A model generated the notes under the pieces. It ran no database searches, was not told where the DNA came from, and worked only from the letters and a program-made list of their open reading frames with translations. From Haloglomus litoreum (lineage in GTDB: Archaea > Halobacteriota > Halobacteria > Halobacteriales > Haloarculaceae), in contig NZ_CP119988.1 of NCBI RefSeq assembly GCF_029338515.1, positions 2,356,001 through 2,420,000 of the forward strand: a stretch of DNA of 64,000 bases, read 5' to 3'. The translations under genes and the position numbers were made by a program. Shown here piece by piece: positions 44,199 to 49,904 of the stretch; the first letter of the stretch is position 1, and the number at the start of each line of letters is the position of its first letter.

Positions 44199-44253
44199 AC
44201 GGGGCACCCGCCCTCCCTCCGTCGATTGCGTGATCCCGGCTATCCGGCCCCCA

Positions 44254-44281
44254 GCGGCCGCAGAATCGGCCGTTCGGCCGC
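44254..44281. terminator. GC-rich hairpin after the acyl-CoA dehydrogenase
   Basis: gcggccg and cggccgc pair across a 14-base loop. It ends four bases before the TATA element of the next gene. With no T-run, it may be a terminator or a boundary element. The call is weak. Confidence 0.35.
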
Positions 44282-44284
44282 AGG

Positions 44285-44291
44285 TTTAATA
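44285..44291 (+). promoter_or_regulatory. TATA box whose spacing points to ATG 44316, out of frame with the exoprotein
   Basis: TTTAATA, centred about 27 bases before the ATG at 44316. That ATG reads MQTERGG into a seven-G run (44331-44337) and stays out of frame with the exported protein. Losing one G would join the frames. Confidence 0.5.
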
Positions 44292-44364
44292 CACCCCGTT
44301 TCCCACCTGATGGTAATGCAGACAGAACGAGGGGGGGTTTCCGGGCGTCCCGACCCGGTCTGCG

Positions 44365-46158
44365 GTGAAGCCCGTGCGTGATGCGGGCGTCCTCCACGAC
44401 CTGGTGGTACTGGGCTGTGCACTGTTGCTCCTGACCGCGACAGCACCGGTGACCGGCACGCCGTCACCGAGCGACGGCGCCGGTGTCGACGCACTGCAGG
44501 ACGAGGACACCGGCGCCGTCGACGGGGCCTGCGTCTGGGAGAACACGGTCACCGGCGACGCCTACGGGAACGAGTTCGGCGTCACCTGCACGAACTCTAC
44601 GCTCGATGGCGGGACCATCGAGTTCGACATGCGGAACGGGTGGGCGTACCTCGTCGTCGTCGAGGTTCCCGACGGTGTCGAGGAGGCACGGTTCGAGGCG
44701 CGCCCGACGGGGCCCCCGGAGGCGCCGCAGGTCATCACCGACTACTCGGGGGTCGAACCCGAGAACATCGTTCCGCTACGCGGGTCCACCATCCTCCGCC
44801 CGGTCGAGGTGCTCCGGCCACAGGACGGCCAGCGGCGCGTCTTCCGAACCGCCCGCGAGGAAGCGTTCCAGGCAGATACCGACCCCCAGCGCCGGGAGGT
44901 GGCCGTCGCCATGACGCCGTACGTCACCCTCGGGTCGCCCGCGGACCAGCAGGTCCGGGCGTACCCGGCGGGCCCGATGCGTGCGAGCCTCGACCTGCCG
45001 CCGGGCGTCTACGACCTCGAAATCCGGGCGTACAAACCACGGGTCTGGAACCTGAACGAACTCGACCGCGACCTCGAACGGAAGTTCGTCGCGGGGTCGC
45101 CGACGACCCGCTCGACCCTCTCGGTCGGCGTGGGGGACTGCAACCCGCGGTTCTCCGCCCCGCCCAAACTGCGTGAACTCGACGTGCGCGAGACGGAGTA
45201 CCGTGCGGACCTGACCGACGCGGGGGAGACACTGCGCTCCTCCGGCGGCGGTGGCGGGAGCGGCGCGGCCCGGGCCGCCCAGGCGGCGTCGGTCGCGGAC
45301 GACGCCGTCAGAGGCGGCGAGGGGAGTCTCTCGGGCGCGATGACGCAGGGCCTGCCGAACGTGGCGCTGAAACGGGCCTACGAGGGGCCGAACGGCGATC
45401 GTCCGGACCGGAACCCGGACGTCGAGCAGAAGCGTGCCGATTCGAGCGCCCTGAACCCCATCGAGCGCACGAAGCGCGACCTCGACGAGCGCGTCACGCT
45501 GAGTCAGGGGTTCGCCGAGGAGACAGCGGCGGCGACCGACGCCCTGCGGCGCATCCAGCGCGAACGGGCGACGACGCGGGCCGAGATCCGCCGCTGTCAC
45601 GGCGGGGGCTACACCACCGGAGCAACCGGTGACGACGGGGACACCACGAACGAGGAGCAGTACCGCGCGGACATCTCGGAGGAGGCCGCCATCGAGGCCG
45701 TCGCCAGGGGGATGCGGGAACGCGGGATGGTGCCGCCCGCGACGTCCGGCCTGACCCTGGAGAACTACCTCTACACGGATGTCCTGCAGGGGAGCCGTGG
45801 CGGGACCGAGACCGGAACGCGCGTCGTCTACATGCGCGTCAGCCCGGACGGCAACCCCCTGCCGAACCCCGAGACCGTCGCCCAGCAACGGGCCAGCGGC
45901 GAGGTCGAGACGGGGTCGCTGGAGGGTGCCTCGCACATGCTGACGTTCAAGCAGTTCCGCTACCCCGACGGCGGGCACGACGCCGCCGCGCAGTTCGTCG
46001 AGGTGGAGACGGGCATCATCCGGGGCCAGCAGATGGGCTCGGGCGGGGGCGGGACCGCGGGCCTCACCGACGCCGTCGACGCGGCGTGGACCGAGCTCGA
46101 CGTGACGTTCGGCCGGCCCGACGACGGTCGCGTCGCGCCCGACAACGGGGGTGCCTGA
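44365..46158 (+). CDS. Exported protein with coiled-coil region, family unknown
   Basis: 597 residues from GTG 44365. A signal sequence (about 11-31, DLVVLGCALLLLTATAPVTG) is followed by a beta-rich region (50-260). It contains paired cysteines and ends in GDCNPRFSAPPKLRELDV. A central stretch (300-400) is helical and charged, with KRDLDERVTLSQGFAEETAA, a likely coiled coil. A C-terminal domain runs from 430 to 590. The start may be wrong because of a possible frameshift at the G-run upstream. Its stop overlaps the next gene by eight bases, so the two form an operon. No known family is recognised. Confidence 0.65.
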   Translation: MKPVRDAGVLHDLVVLGCALLLLTATAPVTGTPSPSDGAGVDALQDEDTGAVDGACVWENTVTGDAYGNEFGVTCTNSTLDGGTIEFDMRNGWAYLVVVEVPDGVEEARFEARPTGPPEAPQVITDYSGVEPENIVPLRGSTILRPVEVLRPQDGQRRVFRTAREEAFQADTDPQRREVAVAMTPYVTLGSPADQQVRAYPAGPMRASLDLPPGVYDLEIRAYKPRVWNLNELDRDLERKFVAGSPTTRSTLSVGVGDCNPRFSAPPKLRELDVRETEYRADLTDAGETLRSSGGGGGSGAARAAQAASVADDAVRGGEGSLSGAMTQGLPNVALKRAYEGPNGDRPDRNPDVEQKRADSSALNPIERTKRDLDERVTLSQGFAEETAAATDALRRIQRERATTRAEIRRCHGGGYTTGATGDDGDTTNEEQYRADISEEAAIEAVARGMRERGMVPPATSGLTLENYLYTDVLQGSRGGTETGTRVVYMRVSPDGNPLPNPETVAQQRASGEVETGSLEGASHMLTFKQFRYPDGGHDAAAQFVEVETGIIRGQQMGSGGGGTAGLTDAVDAAWTELDVTFGRPDDGRVAPDNGGA

Positions 46159-48481
46159 CGTGGGGCTCCTCACTCCCCCCTCGCGCCGTGCGCTCGTCAC
46201 GGTCGCCCTCGTCGTCCTCGTCGCGCTCGCGGGCTGTAACGGGCTCTCCGACCTCGGCCTCGACGACGCGGTGCCGGGCGGCTCGGACGGGGACGCCTCG
46301 TTCGCGGCCGTGACGGCCAACGAGTCGCTCGACACGGTGTCGTCGTTCACCCTCGACATCGAGACGCGGACGGCCCGCGGTGACCGGACGGTCGAGGAAC
46401 GACAGACCATCCGGGCGGGCGACGGCCGGGTGGCGGCCACCCAGCGCCGGCGCATCACGGGCGAGGCGGAGACGGTCGTCTCGACCGACTCCTACAGCGA
46501 GGACGGGATGACGTACCTCCGGACGGGCATCCCCGGCGTGGAGGCGTACAGCTACGAGCGGCGGGCGACGGACTCGTTGCTGAACGGGACGGCGCCGACG
46601 AACCTCTCGGCGCAGTTCGCGTTCGACCACGCCCGGACCGACGACGGCGACCACCTGTTCACCGTCGACGACCCCGGTCAGATCCGCGGTGACGTGGCGA
46701 CCGACGACGTCCGGAACGTCTCGGTCAGGGTGCGCGTCGACGACGGTACGGGCCGCATCTCGGACCTGACGTACCACCTCGAACTCGCGGCCGACGGCGG
46801 CACACTCACGTACCACACCGAGCGTACGCTGTCGGCGGTCGGCGAGACGACGGTCGAGCGCCCCGACTGGCTGGCCGAGGCGGCACGGCGGACCGGCGGG
46901 AACGTGACGCTGTCTGACGGCGGTGGCGGTGCCACCGACCTCGGCGACCCCATCGGCGGCGGGACGGTCTACCCGTCGCTCTCCGTCTCCGAACTCCGCG
47001 AGGAGGTCGTGGTGCGTCGGCAGGCCGGCTTCGACGTCCGGAACGCGACGCGCGGTGACTACACCGCGCTCCGGCAGGGGCCGTTCGTCCACGACGGGCA
47101 GGTGTACGGCGTCGTCACCGGGAACAAGGACACCTACGAGGAGAACGTCTCGCTGTTCACCGCCGTCTACGCGTTCGAAACGGAGACGATGGCGCCGAAC
47201 TGGCGGTTCGAACTCCCGGCCGACCACGAACTCGCGGGCGCGCCGACGCTGACCGACGGGACCGTCTACCTGGTCGGCGCGGAAGTGGCGCGCCCCGAGA
47301 CGCCGGGCAGTTACACCCTCTACGCGGTGGACGCGGCGACCGGTGAGGAGCAGTGGTCGCGGGACATCGGGAGCATCCGTCGGGGACAGCTCCAGCGCAT
47401 CCGCGAGCGGACCCGGACCCAGCCCTACCCCAGCTTCCTGCTCGACGGGCAGGTCGCGGTCCGGGACGGCCGGGTGTACGTCGTGAACGCGACGCTGGGC
47501 CCACAGCGCCTGCTCGCGCTGGACGCCGAGTCCGGTGACGAGGTGTGGCGATTCGACGGTGTCGTCTCCGGCGTCGCCCACCACGAGGACCGCGTCTACC
47601 TCGGCGGCTCGACGGACGCCGGGAACGGGACGTACGCGCTCGACGCGGCCACCGGCCGACAGGTGTGGTTCCACCGCGACGCCGAGGCGCCGTACCCCCT
47701 GTTCGCGTCGCTGGCCGACGCGGACGGCGTCTACCTGCGGTCGCTGTCGAACGCCTCGACGCGGACCACCATCCTTGCGCTCGACGCCGAGGACGGAACC
47801 GTCCGGTGGGAGTTCGCCGACGGCGGGCCACCGATGAGCCTGCTCGACAGCAACGCCTCGGCCGGGACGGTGTTCCTGCGAATCGGGGCCCAGGAGATGC
47901 AGAAGCTCGACGCCGGGACGGGCGACATCGACTGGCACATCGGCACCAACCGCGAGGCCGTTCGGTGGCGGGCCGTCGCGGGCGCGGCGAACGTCTACCT
48001 CGGTGACGACTACGAACTGTGGGGGGTCGACCGGACGGACGCCCGCTTCGAGGGCACGGAGTCCGAGGGAACGTGGACCGTCCGGCGGGACCCGAACTCG
48101 CTGGGCTCGAACGAGCTGTCGGCGGTCCGTGAGGTGAACGGCATCGTCTACACACTCGACGACGCCGGGACCGTGCAGGCATACGACGCCGACGACGGGG
48201 AACGGCTGTACGAACACCAGTTCCAGTACGCGGAGATCACCCGGGTCGCCGTCACCGACCGGAAGGCGTACGTCGGGCTGGATACGGGCCAGCTGTACGC
48301 GCTGGCGCCGGTGCCCGAAGCGGTCGCCCAGCGGGAATCCGCCACCCCGGCCGGCGACGCGACAGCGGCCGACGCCGGCGACGGAGGACGGCCGACGAGC
48401 GCGGTCGGCCCCGGGTTCGGGCTCGTGGGGGCGCTCGCCGCGCTCCTGCTGGGCCTCGTGACCCGGAGGTGGTGGGCGTGA
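46151..48481 (+). CDS. Lipoprotein with PQQ-like beta-propeller and PGF-CTERM-like tail
   Basis: 776 residues from a GTG overlapping the previous gene. The signal ends VALVVLVALAGC with lipobox Cys29. Residues 50-260 form a beta-rich domain (TLDIETRTARGDRTVEE). Residues 310-720 hold PQQ/YVTN-type propeller repeats such as LYAVDAATGEEQWSRD and LALDAESGDEVWRFDG. The tail GPGFGLVGALAALLLGLVTR looks like a PGF-CTERM archaeosortase signal. Having both a lipobox and a C-terminal sorting signal is unusual. It lies outside the membrane. The function is unknown. Confidence 0.78.
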   Translation: MPDVGLLTPPSRRALVTVALVVLVALAGCNGLSDLGLDDAVPGGSDGDASFAAVTANESLDTVSSFTLDIETRTARGDRTVEERQTIRAGDGRVAATQRRRITGEAETVVSTDSYSEDGMTYLRTGIPGVEAYSYERRATDSLLNGTAPTNLSAQFAFDHARTDDGDHLFTVDDPGQIRGDVATDDVRNVSVRVRVDDGTGRISDLTYHLELAADGGTLTYHTERTLSAVGETTVERPDWLAEAARRTGGNVTLSDGGGGATDLGDPIGGGTVYPSLSVSELREEVVVRRQAGFDVRNATRGDYTALRQGPFVHDGQVYGVVTGNKDTYEENVSLFTAVYAFETETMAPNWRFELPADHELAGAPTLTDGTVYLVGAEVARPETPGSYTLYAVDAATGEEQWSRDIGSIRRGQLQRIRERTRTQPYPSFLLDGQVAVRDGRVYVVNATLGPQRLLALDAESGDEVWRFDGVVSGVAHHEDRVYLGGSTDAGNGTYALDAATGRQVWFHRDAEAPYPLFASLADADGVYLRSLSNASTRTTILALDAEDGTVRWEFADGGPPMSLLDSNASAGTVFLRIGAQEMQKLDAGTGDIDWHIGTNREAVRWRAVAGAANVYLGDDYELWGVDRTDARFEGTESEGTWTVRRDPNSLGSNELSAVREVNGIVYTLDDAGTVQAYDADDGERLYEHQFQYAEITRVAVTDRKAYVGLDTGQLYALAPVPEAVAQRESATPAGDATAADAGDGGRPTSAVGPGFGLVGALAALLLGLVTRRWWA

Positions 48482-48560
48482 GCACCCCGCTCGGCCCGCC
48501 GGGGACGGCCGACGCTCCCCGGCCGCAGGTTTACGGTCCCCTGGGGGGTGGGTCAGGACG

Positions 48561-49814
48561 ATGACGCGACCAGACGGGGGCCGACGACGTTACTCCAGAC
48601 GCGCGTTGCTCGCGGGGGGACTCACCGCGGGCGTGACCGGCCTCGCCGGGTGTACCGACGGGTTCGGCGAGGGGCTCGGCGGCACCGGCACCGAGGCCAT
48701 CTTCCAGCGGGTCTCGTTCGACGACCCGTCCGAACTGGACGGGTGGCCGTCCCGCGGGTACAGTCCGACGAACCTCGGGTGGAAGCCGAACACGACCGGC
48801 CCGACGGGGAACGTCGGCGTGGAGTGGGCGTTCGACACCGGCACGGCCCAGCCGATGGGGAGCAGCCCGGCGGTCGTCGACGGGACGGTGTACGTCGGCC
48901 ACGCCGACGGCGGCGTGTACGCGGTGGACGCGGCCTCCGGCGAGGAGGTCTGGAGCGCGACCACCGGCGACCCCATCCGGTGGAGTTCGCCGACGGTCGC
49001 CGACGGGACCGTCTACATCGGCTCCACGGACGACCACTTCTACGCGTTCGACGCGGGCTCGGGCGACCTGCTGTGGCGCCACGAGACCCGGAGCGACGTG
49101 AACAGTTCGCCGGTCGTGGCGGATGGGCGGGTGTTCTTCGCCACCGACGCGGGGTACGTCTATGGCCTCGACTCGCTCACCGGGAGCGTCGTCTGGGAGA
49201 CGCCACGGCCCGTCGGTGGTCGCATCCAGAGCGGACTCGCGGCCGCCGACGGGACGGTGTACGTCACCGGCGGGCAGGTCATCGCCTTCGACGCCGCCAG
49301 CGGTGCCGAGCAGTGGCGGGCGGGGAGCGGCGCCAACCAGCCGCCCAACGGCACGCCGACGGTCGCCGGTGACCTCGTCCTCGGCGAGTTCGGGCAGTAT
49401 CTCGGCGCGGTCACGACCGACGGCGAGGAACTGGGCGGCGCCTACCGCTACGGCGTGAACGGGTGGGGGAGTCCCGCCGTCGCCGGGGACACGGTGTACG
49501 TGGCCACCAAGGGGTACAGTCCGGACCCGACGGTCCACGCCGTGGAGATCAGGGCGTCGAACGTGACGATGAAGGCGACGGTGGCGTGGCAGGCCACGAC
49601 GGGCCGTGGCATCTTCTCCAGTCCGGCCGTCGTCGACGGGACCGTCTACGTCGCCAGTAGCGCACCCAGCGTCGCGGCGTTCGGCGCCGAGGACGGCGCC
49701 GAGCGCTGGCGGCTGGAGGTGCCGGTCTCGGACTACTCCTCGCCCGCCGTCGTGGACGGACGGCTCTACGTCGGCGGTATCGACGGGAAGCTCTACGCGC
49801 TCGGGGAAGGGTAG
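48561..49814 (+). CDS. Tat lipoprotein with PQQ-like beta-propeller
   Basis: 417 residues. The twin-arginine signal YSRRALLAGGLTAGVTGLAG leads to lipobox Cys31. Seven to eight propeller repeats follow, each with SSPAVVDGTVYVG or a close variant and a YAVDAASGEEVW strand. Such propellers act in outer assembly (BamB-like) or in redox chemistry. Haloarchaea have no outer membrane, so this is probably a cell-surface scaffold or receptor. It lies 79 bases after the other propeller gene, on the same strand. Confidence 0.82.
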   Translation: MTRPDGGRRRYSRRALLAGGLTAGVTGLAGCTDGFGEGLGGTGTEAIFQRVSFDDPSELDGWPSRGYSPTNLGWKPNTTGPTGNVGVEWAFDTGTAQPMGSSPAVVDGTVYVGHADGGVYAVDAASGEEVWSATTGDPIRWSSPTVADGTVYIGSTDDHFYAFDAGSGDLLWRHETRSDVNSSPVVADGRVFFATDAGYVYGLDSLTGSVVWETPRPVGGRIQSGLAAADGTVYVTGGQVIAFDAASGAEQWRAGSGANQPPNGTPTVAGDLVLGEFGQYLGAVTTDGEELGGAYRYGVNGWGSPAVAGDTVYVATKGYSPDPTVHAVEIRASNVTMKATVAWQATTGRGIFSSPAVVDGTVYVASSAPSVAAFGAEDGAERWRLEVPVSDYSSPAVVDGRLYVGGIDGKLYALGEG

Positions 49815-49904
49815 TCGGCGGGAATCGAGTAGAATCCGGCCGTAACTACGTCCGAAGGGGTAATCAGACTTCGGTCGACGGACTTCGACGACTGCCCAGG
49901 TATT

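Follow-up and report, generated by a model that had tools for sequence, protein, structure and literature searches.

We have found that three consecutive genes for predicted exported proteins (here A, B and C), located in a 64 kb stretch of haloarchaeal DNA (the window, meaning the whole stretch analyzed), appear to be linked as one unit, and this linkage is well supported by their co-occurrence in other genomes. The module is rare, and no earlier description of it was found in the sources searched. It is mostly made of known families, newly combined around an exported family that is undescribed. All three reading frames were confirmed on the plus strand at the coordinates listed below, together with the other features of the region.

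44199-49894 (no strand): region without counterpart in three genomes of the same genus, between two acyl-CoA dehydrogenase genes
44275-44288 (+): promoter-like element CGGCCGCAGGTTTA, 14 nt, upstream of A, running into the TATA-like TTTAATA
44365-46158 (+): gene A, exported protein of 597 aa
Parts of A (residues): signal peptide 1-52; N-terminal domain 53-264; helical hairpin 265-426; C-terminal domain 427-590
45643-46134 (+): C-terminal domain of A, common to a LysM protein of the genome G030
46151-48481 (start GTG 46151) or 46160-48481 (start GTG 46160) (+): gene B, 776 or 773 aa
48410-48478 (+): PGF-CTERM-like tail of B, tripartite (GPGFG, hydrophobic stretch, RR)
48520-48533 (+): second copy of CGGCCGCAGGTTTA, upstream of C
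48561-49814 (+): gene C, 417 aa, with Tat motif, lipobox and PQQ_2 propeller

We searched for A in 97 relatives, for its C-terminal domain in 391 genomes of the class and for the full-length protein in 146 genomes of the family, while full-length B was searched in 142 family genomes and C in the 391 class genomes at E <= 1e-40. Full-length A was found only in the genome of the window and in G317, a member of another genus, and the same was true of full-length B. At its threshold C was found in these same two genomes, plus one partial match in G271, which was discarded as a carrier of the module: the region surrounding the match had no recognizable A or B. One scan of genome contigs with A gave no match, and a second one retrieved only the metagenome-assembled genome (MAG) G030. 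The weak matches to the A profile across the class and the phylum were taken as chance, those examined being unrelated genes such as the tryptophan synthase beta gene.

In G317 the three genes are on one strand and abutting, with the stop of C directly before the ATG of A (TGAATG) and an overlap of 4 nt between A and B. Their order is C-A-B versus A-B-C in the window. Conservation of the gene order had been proposed in the earlier note as one way to check the cluster; the content is indeed kept, with all three genes together, but the order is permuted. To find the three genes together in a second genus and in another order indicates one real unit. The suggestion of an undescribed functional unit is supported in that the full-length A, B and C co-occur and abut in one other genome and the coupling of A and B appears in a third (G451, see below). 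The number of complete independent copies beyond the window is one (G317). Between the two genomes the identity was 52% for A (full-length in G317), 43% for B and 54% for C. By parts, the N-terminal domain of A had 46.9%, the hairpin 59% and the C-terminal domain 56.5% in this single pair, with 56% for the DUF7537 domain of B, 38% for its propeller and 56% for the propeller of C. The four cysteines in the exported part of A are all conserved in G317. In A and C the third codon positions diverge more than the first two, with a weaker signal in B; such excess of third-position divergence is expected for genes under selection.

Protein A had no match in Pfam, NCBIfam, PHROGs, PADLOC or the PDB sequences, and PDB sequence profiles gave no significant match. 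The defence-system models did not match A, B or C. We consider that A is a predicted exported protein of an undescribed family, with a signal peptide (residues 1-52) identified by reading the sequence and a helical hairpin flanked by C259 and C411. The full-length model was too poor for use (pLDDT 43.5). Describing A as a coiled coil, as had been done before, is fair for residues 265-411, which form long helices in this low-confidence model. A also has a separate C-terminal domain. This domain, the DUF7537 domain of B and the 14 nt element before A and C were all absent from the earlier note.

The eight-base overlap described for A and B holds exactly with GTG 46151 as the start of B. However, the GTG at 46160, one base past the stop of A, agrees better with the G317 ortholog in length and alignment, and leaves a gap of 1 nt instead. 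Judging from the reading frames, A and B are coupled whichever start codon B uses. The N-terminal half of B belongs to DUF7537 (PF24381; 49.5 bits over residues 15-244, gathering cut-off 31.7; 55.6 bits in the G317 ortholog) and is followed by a PQQ_2 propeller (PF13360; 101.2 bits, cut-off 27.6). The sole cysteine of B is that of its lipobox, LVALAGC. Against TIGR04126 (PGF-CTERM) B scored 15.3 bits and its ortholog 20.0, both below the curated cut-off of 24.5, and the tripartite tail (motif, hydrophobic stretch and basic residues) is present in both orthologs with GPGFG kept. The description of B as a lipoprotein propeller with a PGF-CTERM-like tail thus holds by the lipobox and tail read from the sequence, even with a score below that cut-off. 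C was likewise rightly called a Tat lipoprotein propeller, having a Tat motif with lipobox RRALLAGGLTAGVTGLAGC (RRALLAGG..LAGC) and a PF13360 match of 144.2 bits (same cut-off, 27.6). Its only cysteine is again that of the lipobox, and the lipobox cysteines of B and C are conserved in their orthologs. Both proteins appear to be anchored on the outer side of the membrane, and B is a candidate for dual lipid anchoring, with the signals conserved in its sole ortholog.

The PQQ repeats of B and C could suggest a quinoprotein, i.e. a PQQ-dependent oxidation system. We regard this as very improbable: the PQQ-dependent dehydrogenase model TIGR03075 gave 49 bits for B and 101 bits for C with a cut-off of 480, and each protein has one cysteine, that of the lipobox. 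The BamB equivalog TIGR03300 did not reach its cut-off of 285.2 either (67.9 bits for B and 125.3 bits for C).

The distance of 79 nt between B and C (48482-48560) is as reported before and contains the second copy of CGGCCGCAGGTTTA. This element is present in exactly two copies in the 64 kb of the window, with no other at up to 2 mismatches, although the pattern was spotted after the fact and a chance estimate is not strict. As C has a promoter-like element of its own, it is probably transcribed separately from A-B, and the two copies suggest that both transcription units share one element.

A third genome, G451, from another genus of the family, contains a contig of 5.1 kb with a partial A-like gene (244 codons, open at the 5' end) without the A C-terminal domain, and this gene overlaps by 4 nt a gene for a DUF7537 lipoprotein without propeller. 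A coupled stop-start junction of A and B is thus seen in every one of the three cases, as TGAcGTG in the window, as GTGA in G317 and as ATGA in G451. The similarity to A is remote (BLASTP E 1e-6 in a single comparison; hhalign 4e-5 with probability 69.5) and extends over the hairpin and the PPGVYD and G-C motifs. The fragment has just two cysteines, which correspond to C259 and C411. After the pair comes a gene for a CPBP-protease-like membrane protein (L056 1811-2647, plus strand, read from the sequence), and beyond it a PQQ propeller gene on the opposite strand. The propeller of B, missing here, is also its least conserved folded part between the window and G317.

We also sampled 25 DUF7537 loci with a clear reading frame elsewhere, and none of them (0/25) had an A-like coupled gene, which argues for a specific pairing of A with DUF7537. 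Together with the coupling in G451 of an A-like gene to a lipoprotein that has only DUF7537, this points to DUF7537 as the partner of A. Since G451 lacks both the B propeller and the A C-terminal domain, the ancestral core looks like the N-terminal domain and hairpin of A plus a DUF7537 lipoprotein, and the propellers and the A C-terminal domain may be add-ons gained or lost around it. Besides, the genome of the window (G000) has about 14 DUF7537 matches and two sibling genomes have 13 each, whereas most other genera have 1-8, which looks like an expansion of these lipoproteins in the lineage.

The three genes could also be unrelated exported genes, neighbors by chance, that moved once as a block. 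The different order in the two genomes and the separate promoter-like element of C would agree with this, as would how common both PQQ propellers and DUF7537 lipoproteins are. However, the junctions are tight in both genomes and on different sides of A, the three genes stay together despite the permutation, and the A-B coupling is seen again in a third, divergent genome. We find such a chance block quite unlikely and keep the reading of a linked unit.

Three genomes of the same genus align with the window through the whole of the upstream acyl-CoA dehydrogenase gene, and the alignment resumes at the downstream one. The module is absent at the site from all three, which have 1.2, 0.9 and 0.2 kb there instead. 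In G001 (L053 2268-3509) the site contains a TumE-type toxin gene and an HVO_A0114 helix-turn-helix gene, in G002 (L054 2265-3189) a Fic/Doc gene, and in G003 (L055 2309-2526) it is nearly empty. Based on these alignments, the gap between the acyl-CoA dehydrogenase genes (window 44199-49904) is a variable accessory-gene site in the genus. No clear repeat was seen at the ends of the module. Composition was considered as a sign of transfer and set aside, the difference between the module (72% GC) and its neighbors (66-69%) being too small. The simplest reading would be a gain of the module in the lineage of the window, the alternative being loss in the three siblings.

The C-terminal domain of A has 48-56% identity across three genomes and, predicted alone from the three sequences, gave a good model (pLDDT 79.3, pTM 0.78). 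By structural alignment it was similar to CapZ (Z up to 8.1), to CsgG (Z 5.5 over 110 residues) and to PelC (Z 4.8), the last two values lying in a range that may reflect a common arrangement only. There was no sequence match to CsgG or PelC, and Foldseek searches of the PDB and of viral models gave nothing at E < 0.001. The model fits, but does not establish, the CsgG/TolB-N-like arrangement expected from the sequence. This similarity bears on a possible function in envelope biogenesis or protein quality, in which DUF7537 (lipid- or protein-binding) and the BamB-like propellers would help to fold or place A and other exported proteins. For the propellers there are matches to PF13360, the BamB family profile, and to BamB structures, and CsgG and PelC are lipoproteins to which the A domain has a modest fold similarity. 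However, a general function would be expected to be widespread and hardly any genomes carry the module, the BamB equivalog cut-off was not reached and the Z-scores are in the uninformative range. We consider this role rather improbable.

Beyond the A family, the A C-terminal domain was seen once among the genomes searched, in G030 (MAG QH_10_67_22). Searches with the domain in plasmids and phages, and with A-family queries in viral contigs, gave no match. The G030 protein is encoded as follows.

L003 2-2078 (-): G030 LysM protein with a GNQAVQRQ stretch, adjoining a gene with a DUF4157-like N terminus

Here the domain is internal, between the GNQAVQRQ stretch and the LysM domain. The neighboring gene is cut by the contig end to a stub of 101 aa, whose N terminus resembles those of DUF4157 proteins in its motifs; a Pfam search of the stub gave no DUF4157 match. 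G030 has the genes of a contractile injection system (sheath, tube, LysM tube protein, gp25, baseplate J, hub and Pvc16_N). The LysM and DUF4157-like genes stand apart from the main cluster and are candidate orphan cargo genes. Divergent to the LysM gene lies another gene (L003 1615-4311, plus strand) whose large, acidic product, as judged by its sequence, begins like an ATPase, contains long coiled-coil stretches and has membrane segments at its C terminus. This product is a possible partner of the contractile system. Predicted haloarchaeal toxins of contractile injection systems combine DUF4157 and LysM, including a DUF4157-LysM protein of Halogeometricum rufum (PMC11297309), and the toxins of the H. 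borinquense system include DUF4157 proteins (PMC11566945). A search for sheath genes found none in the genome of the window or in G317, and found them in G030, which indicates that A is not cargo of a contractile system in the first two. A has one domain in common with a cargo-like protein, yet is not itself predicted to be such cargo there. The earlier claim that none of the proteins has a known partner system has to be amended in two points, the common DUF7537 family in the N-terminal half of B and the presence of the A C-terminal domain in that cargo-like protein.

Because the domain is shared with a protein of a contractile system and the site holds toxin-antitoxin-type genes in two siblings, a module for antagonism is a live rival, if an unlikely one. 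The N-terminal part and hairpin of A would be a carrier for display or delivery, the C-terminal domain an effector-type payload that a contractile injection system would also deliver in another haloarchaeon, and B and C would anchor A or protect the producer. The recurrence of the domain beside GNQAVQRQ and LysM, next to a truncated DUF4157-like gene and in a MAG with a contractile injection system, agrees with this, as do the toxins just cited and the G451 relative of A that lacks the domain. However, rather than being variable, the domain ranks with the best-conserved parts of A, it is internal in G030, and no toxin fold or immunity gene was recognized. Moreover, the DUF4157 assignment comes from N-terminal motifs in a stub that Pfam does not match, and the genome of the window has no sheath gene.

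The reading that we prefer, to which we give about even chances, is a mobile, accessory and membrane-tethered surface module, probably gained horizontally, where A has the DUF7537 domain of B as its partner. A would be exported, probably by Sec, and would fold outside the cell with its cysteines oxidized, stabilized by disulfides. It would be made in step with B by way of the coupled stop-start junction and would pair with the DUF7537 domain. B would be anchored at the membrane's outer face through its N-terminal lipid, probably with a second one added by an archaeosortase at the C terminus. The B propeller and C, a Tat lipoprotein propeller in its own right, may act as binding platforms, completing a membrane-proximal complex under the S-layer, and the A C-terminal domain may be the part that contacts a substrate or a neighbor. 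Gene coupling alone is no proof of protein contact. Complex formation, the roles of the parts, dual lipidation and gain over repeated loss are what we infer. The single complete second copy with its permuted order, the promoter-like element of C, the lack of the C-terminal domain in the G451 A, the propeller on the other strand there and the PGF-CTERM scores below the cut-off all count against a surface complex. A bolder version, which we think has little chance of being right, has a dual-tethered DUF7537 lipoprotein displaying A as a carrier, a C-terminal domain used via two delivery routes and propellers as exchangeable recognition parts. If true, with the domain both in A and in contractile-system cargo, this would be an undescribed archaeal contact system.

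Many haloarchaeal lipoproteins and PQQ propellers have no assigned partner; through the module, one of the DUF7537 lipoproteins now has a specific one at the genetic level. This lipoprotein, B, is also a candidate for lipid anchoring at its two ends, and the module connects surface proteins with a domain of a cargo-like protein of contractile systems. Its location at a site with toxin-antitoxin-type genes in related genomes suggests a role in microbial interactions. All this would gain greatly in importance should the C-terminal domain turn out to act as an effector, or should B indeed carry a lipid at either end.

Among known systems, the VARTIG modules of Thermococcales (PMC8416519) are also accessory archaeal surface-protein modules of unassigned role at variable loci. 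However, A, B and C have no match to immunoglobulin domains, and, unlike in VARTIG or polymorphic toxin modules, the A C-terminal domain is not hypervariable (56.5% versus 46.9% for the N-terminal domain in the one ortholog pair). The cargo of haloarchaeal contractile injection systems (DUF4157/LysM; PMC11566945, PMC11297309) resembles A through the C-terminal domain found in one cargo-like LysM protein, but A carries a signal peptide and the genomes of the window and G317 lack the sheath gene. With the CsgG and PelC fold lipoproteins the resemblance is modest (Z 5.5 and 4.8), perhaps a common arrangement only and with no sequence match. BamB and the PQQ-like propeller lipoproteins (PF13360, TIGR03300) share with B and C the propeller repeats and the lipoprotein nature, although both score far under the equivalog cut-off and the archaeal envelope has no outer membrane. 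The PGF-CTERM archaeosortase substrates (TIGR04126; Haloferax volcanii ArtA, PMC7157517) have the PGF motif, hydrophobic stretch and basic end seen in both B orthologs, whereas B scores below the cut-off and has an N-terminal lipobox in the same protein. Finally, by its N-terminal half with the lipobox, B is a clear member of the DUF7537 haloarchaeal lipoproteins (PF24381); while the others sampled are not coupled to an A-like gene, B is coupled to A and adds a propeller and a PGF-CTERM-like tail.
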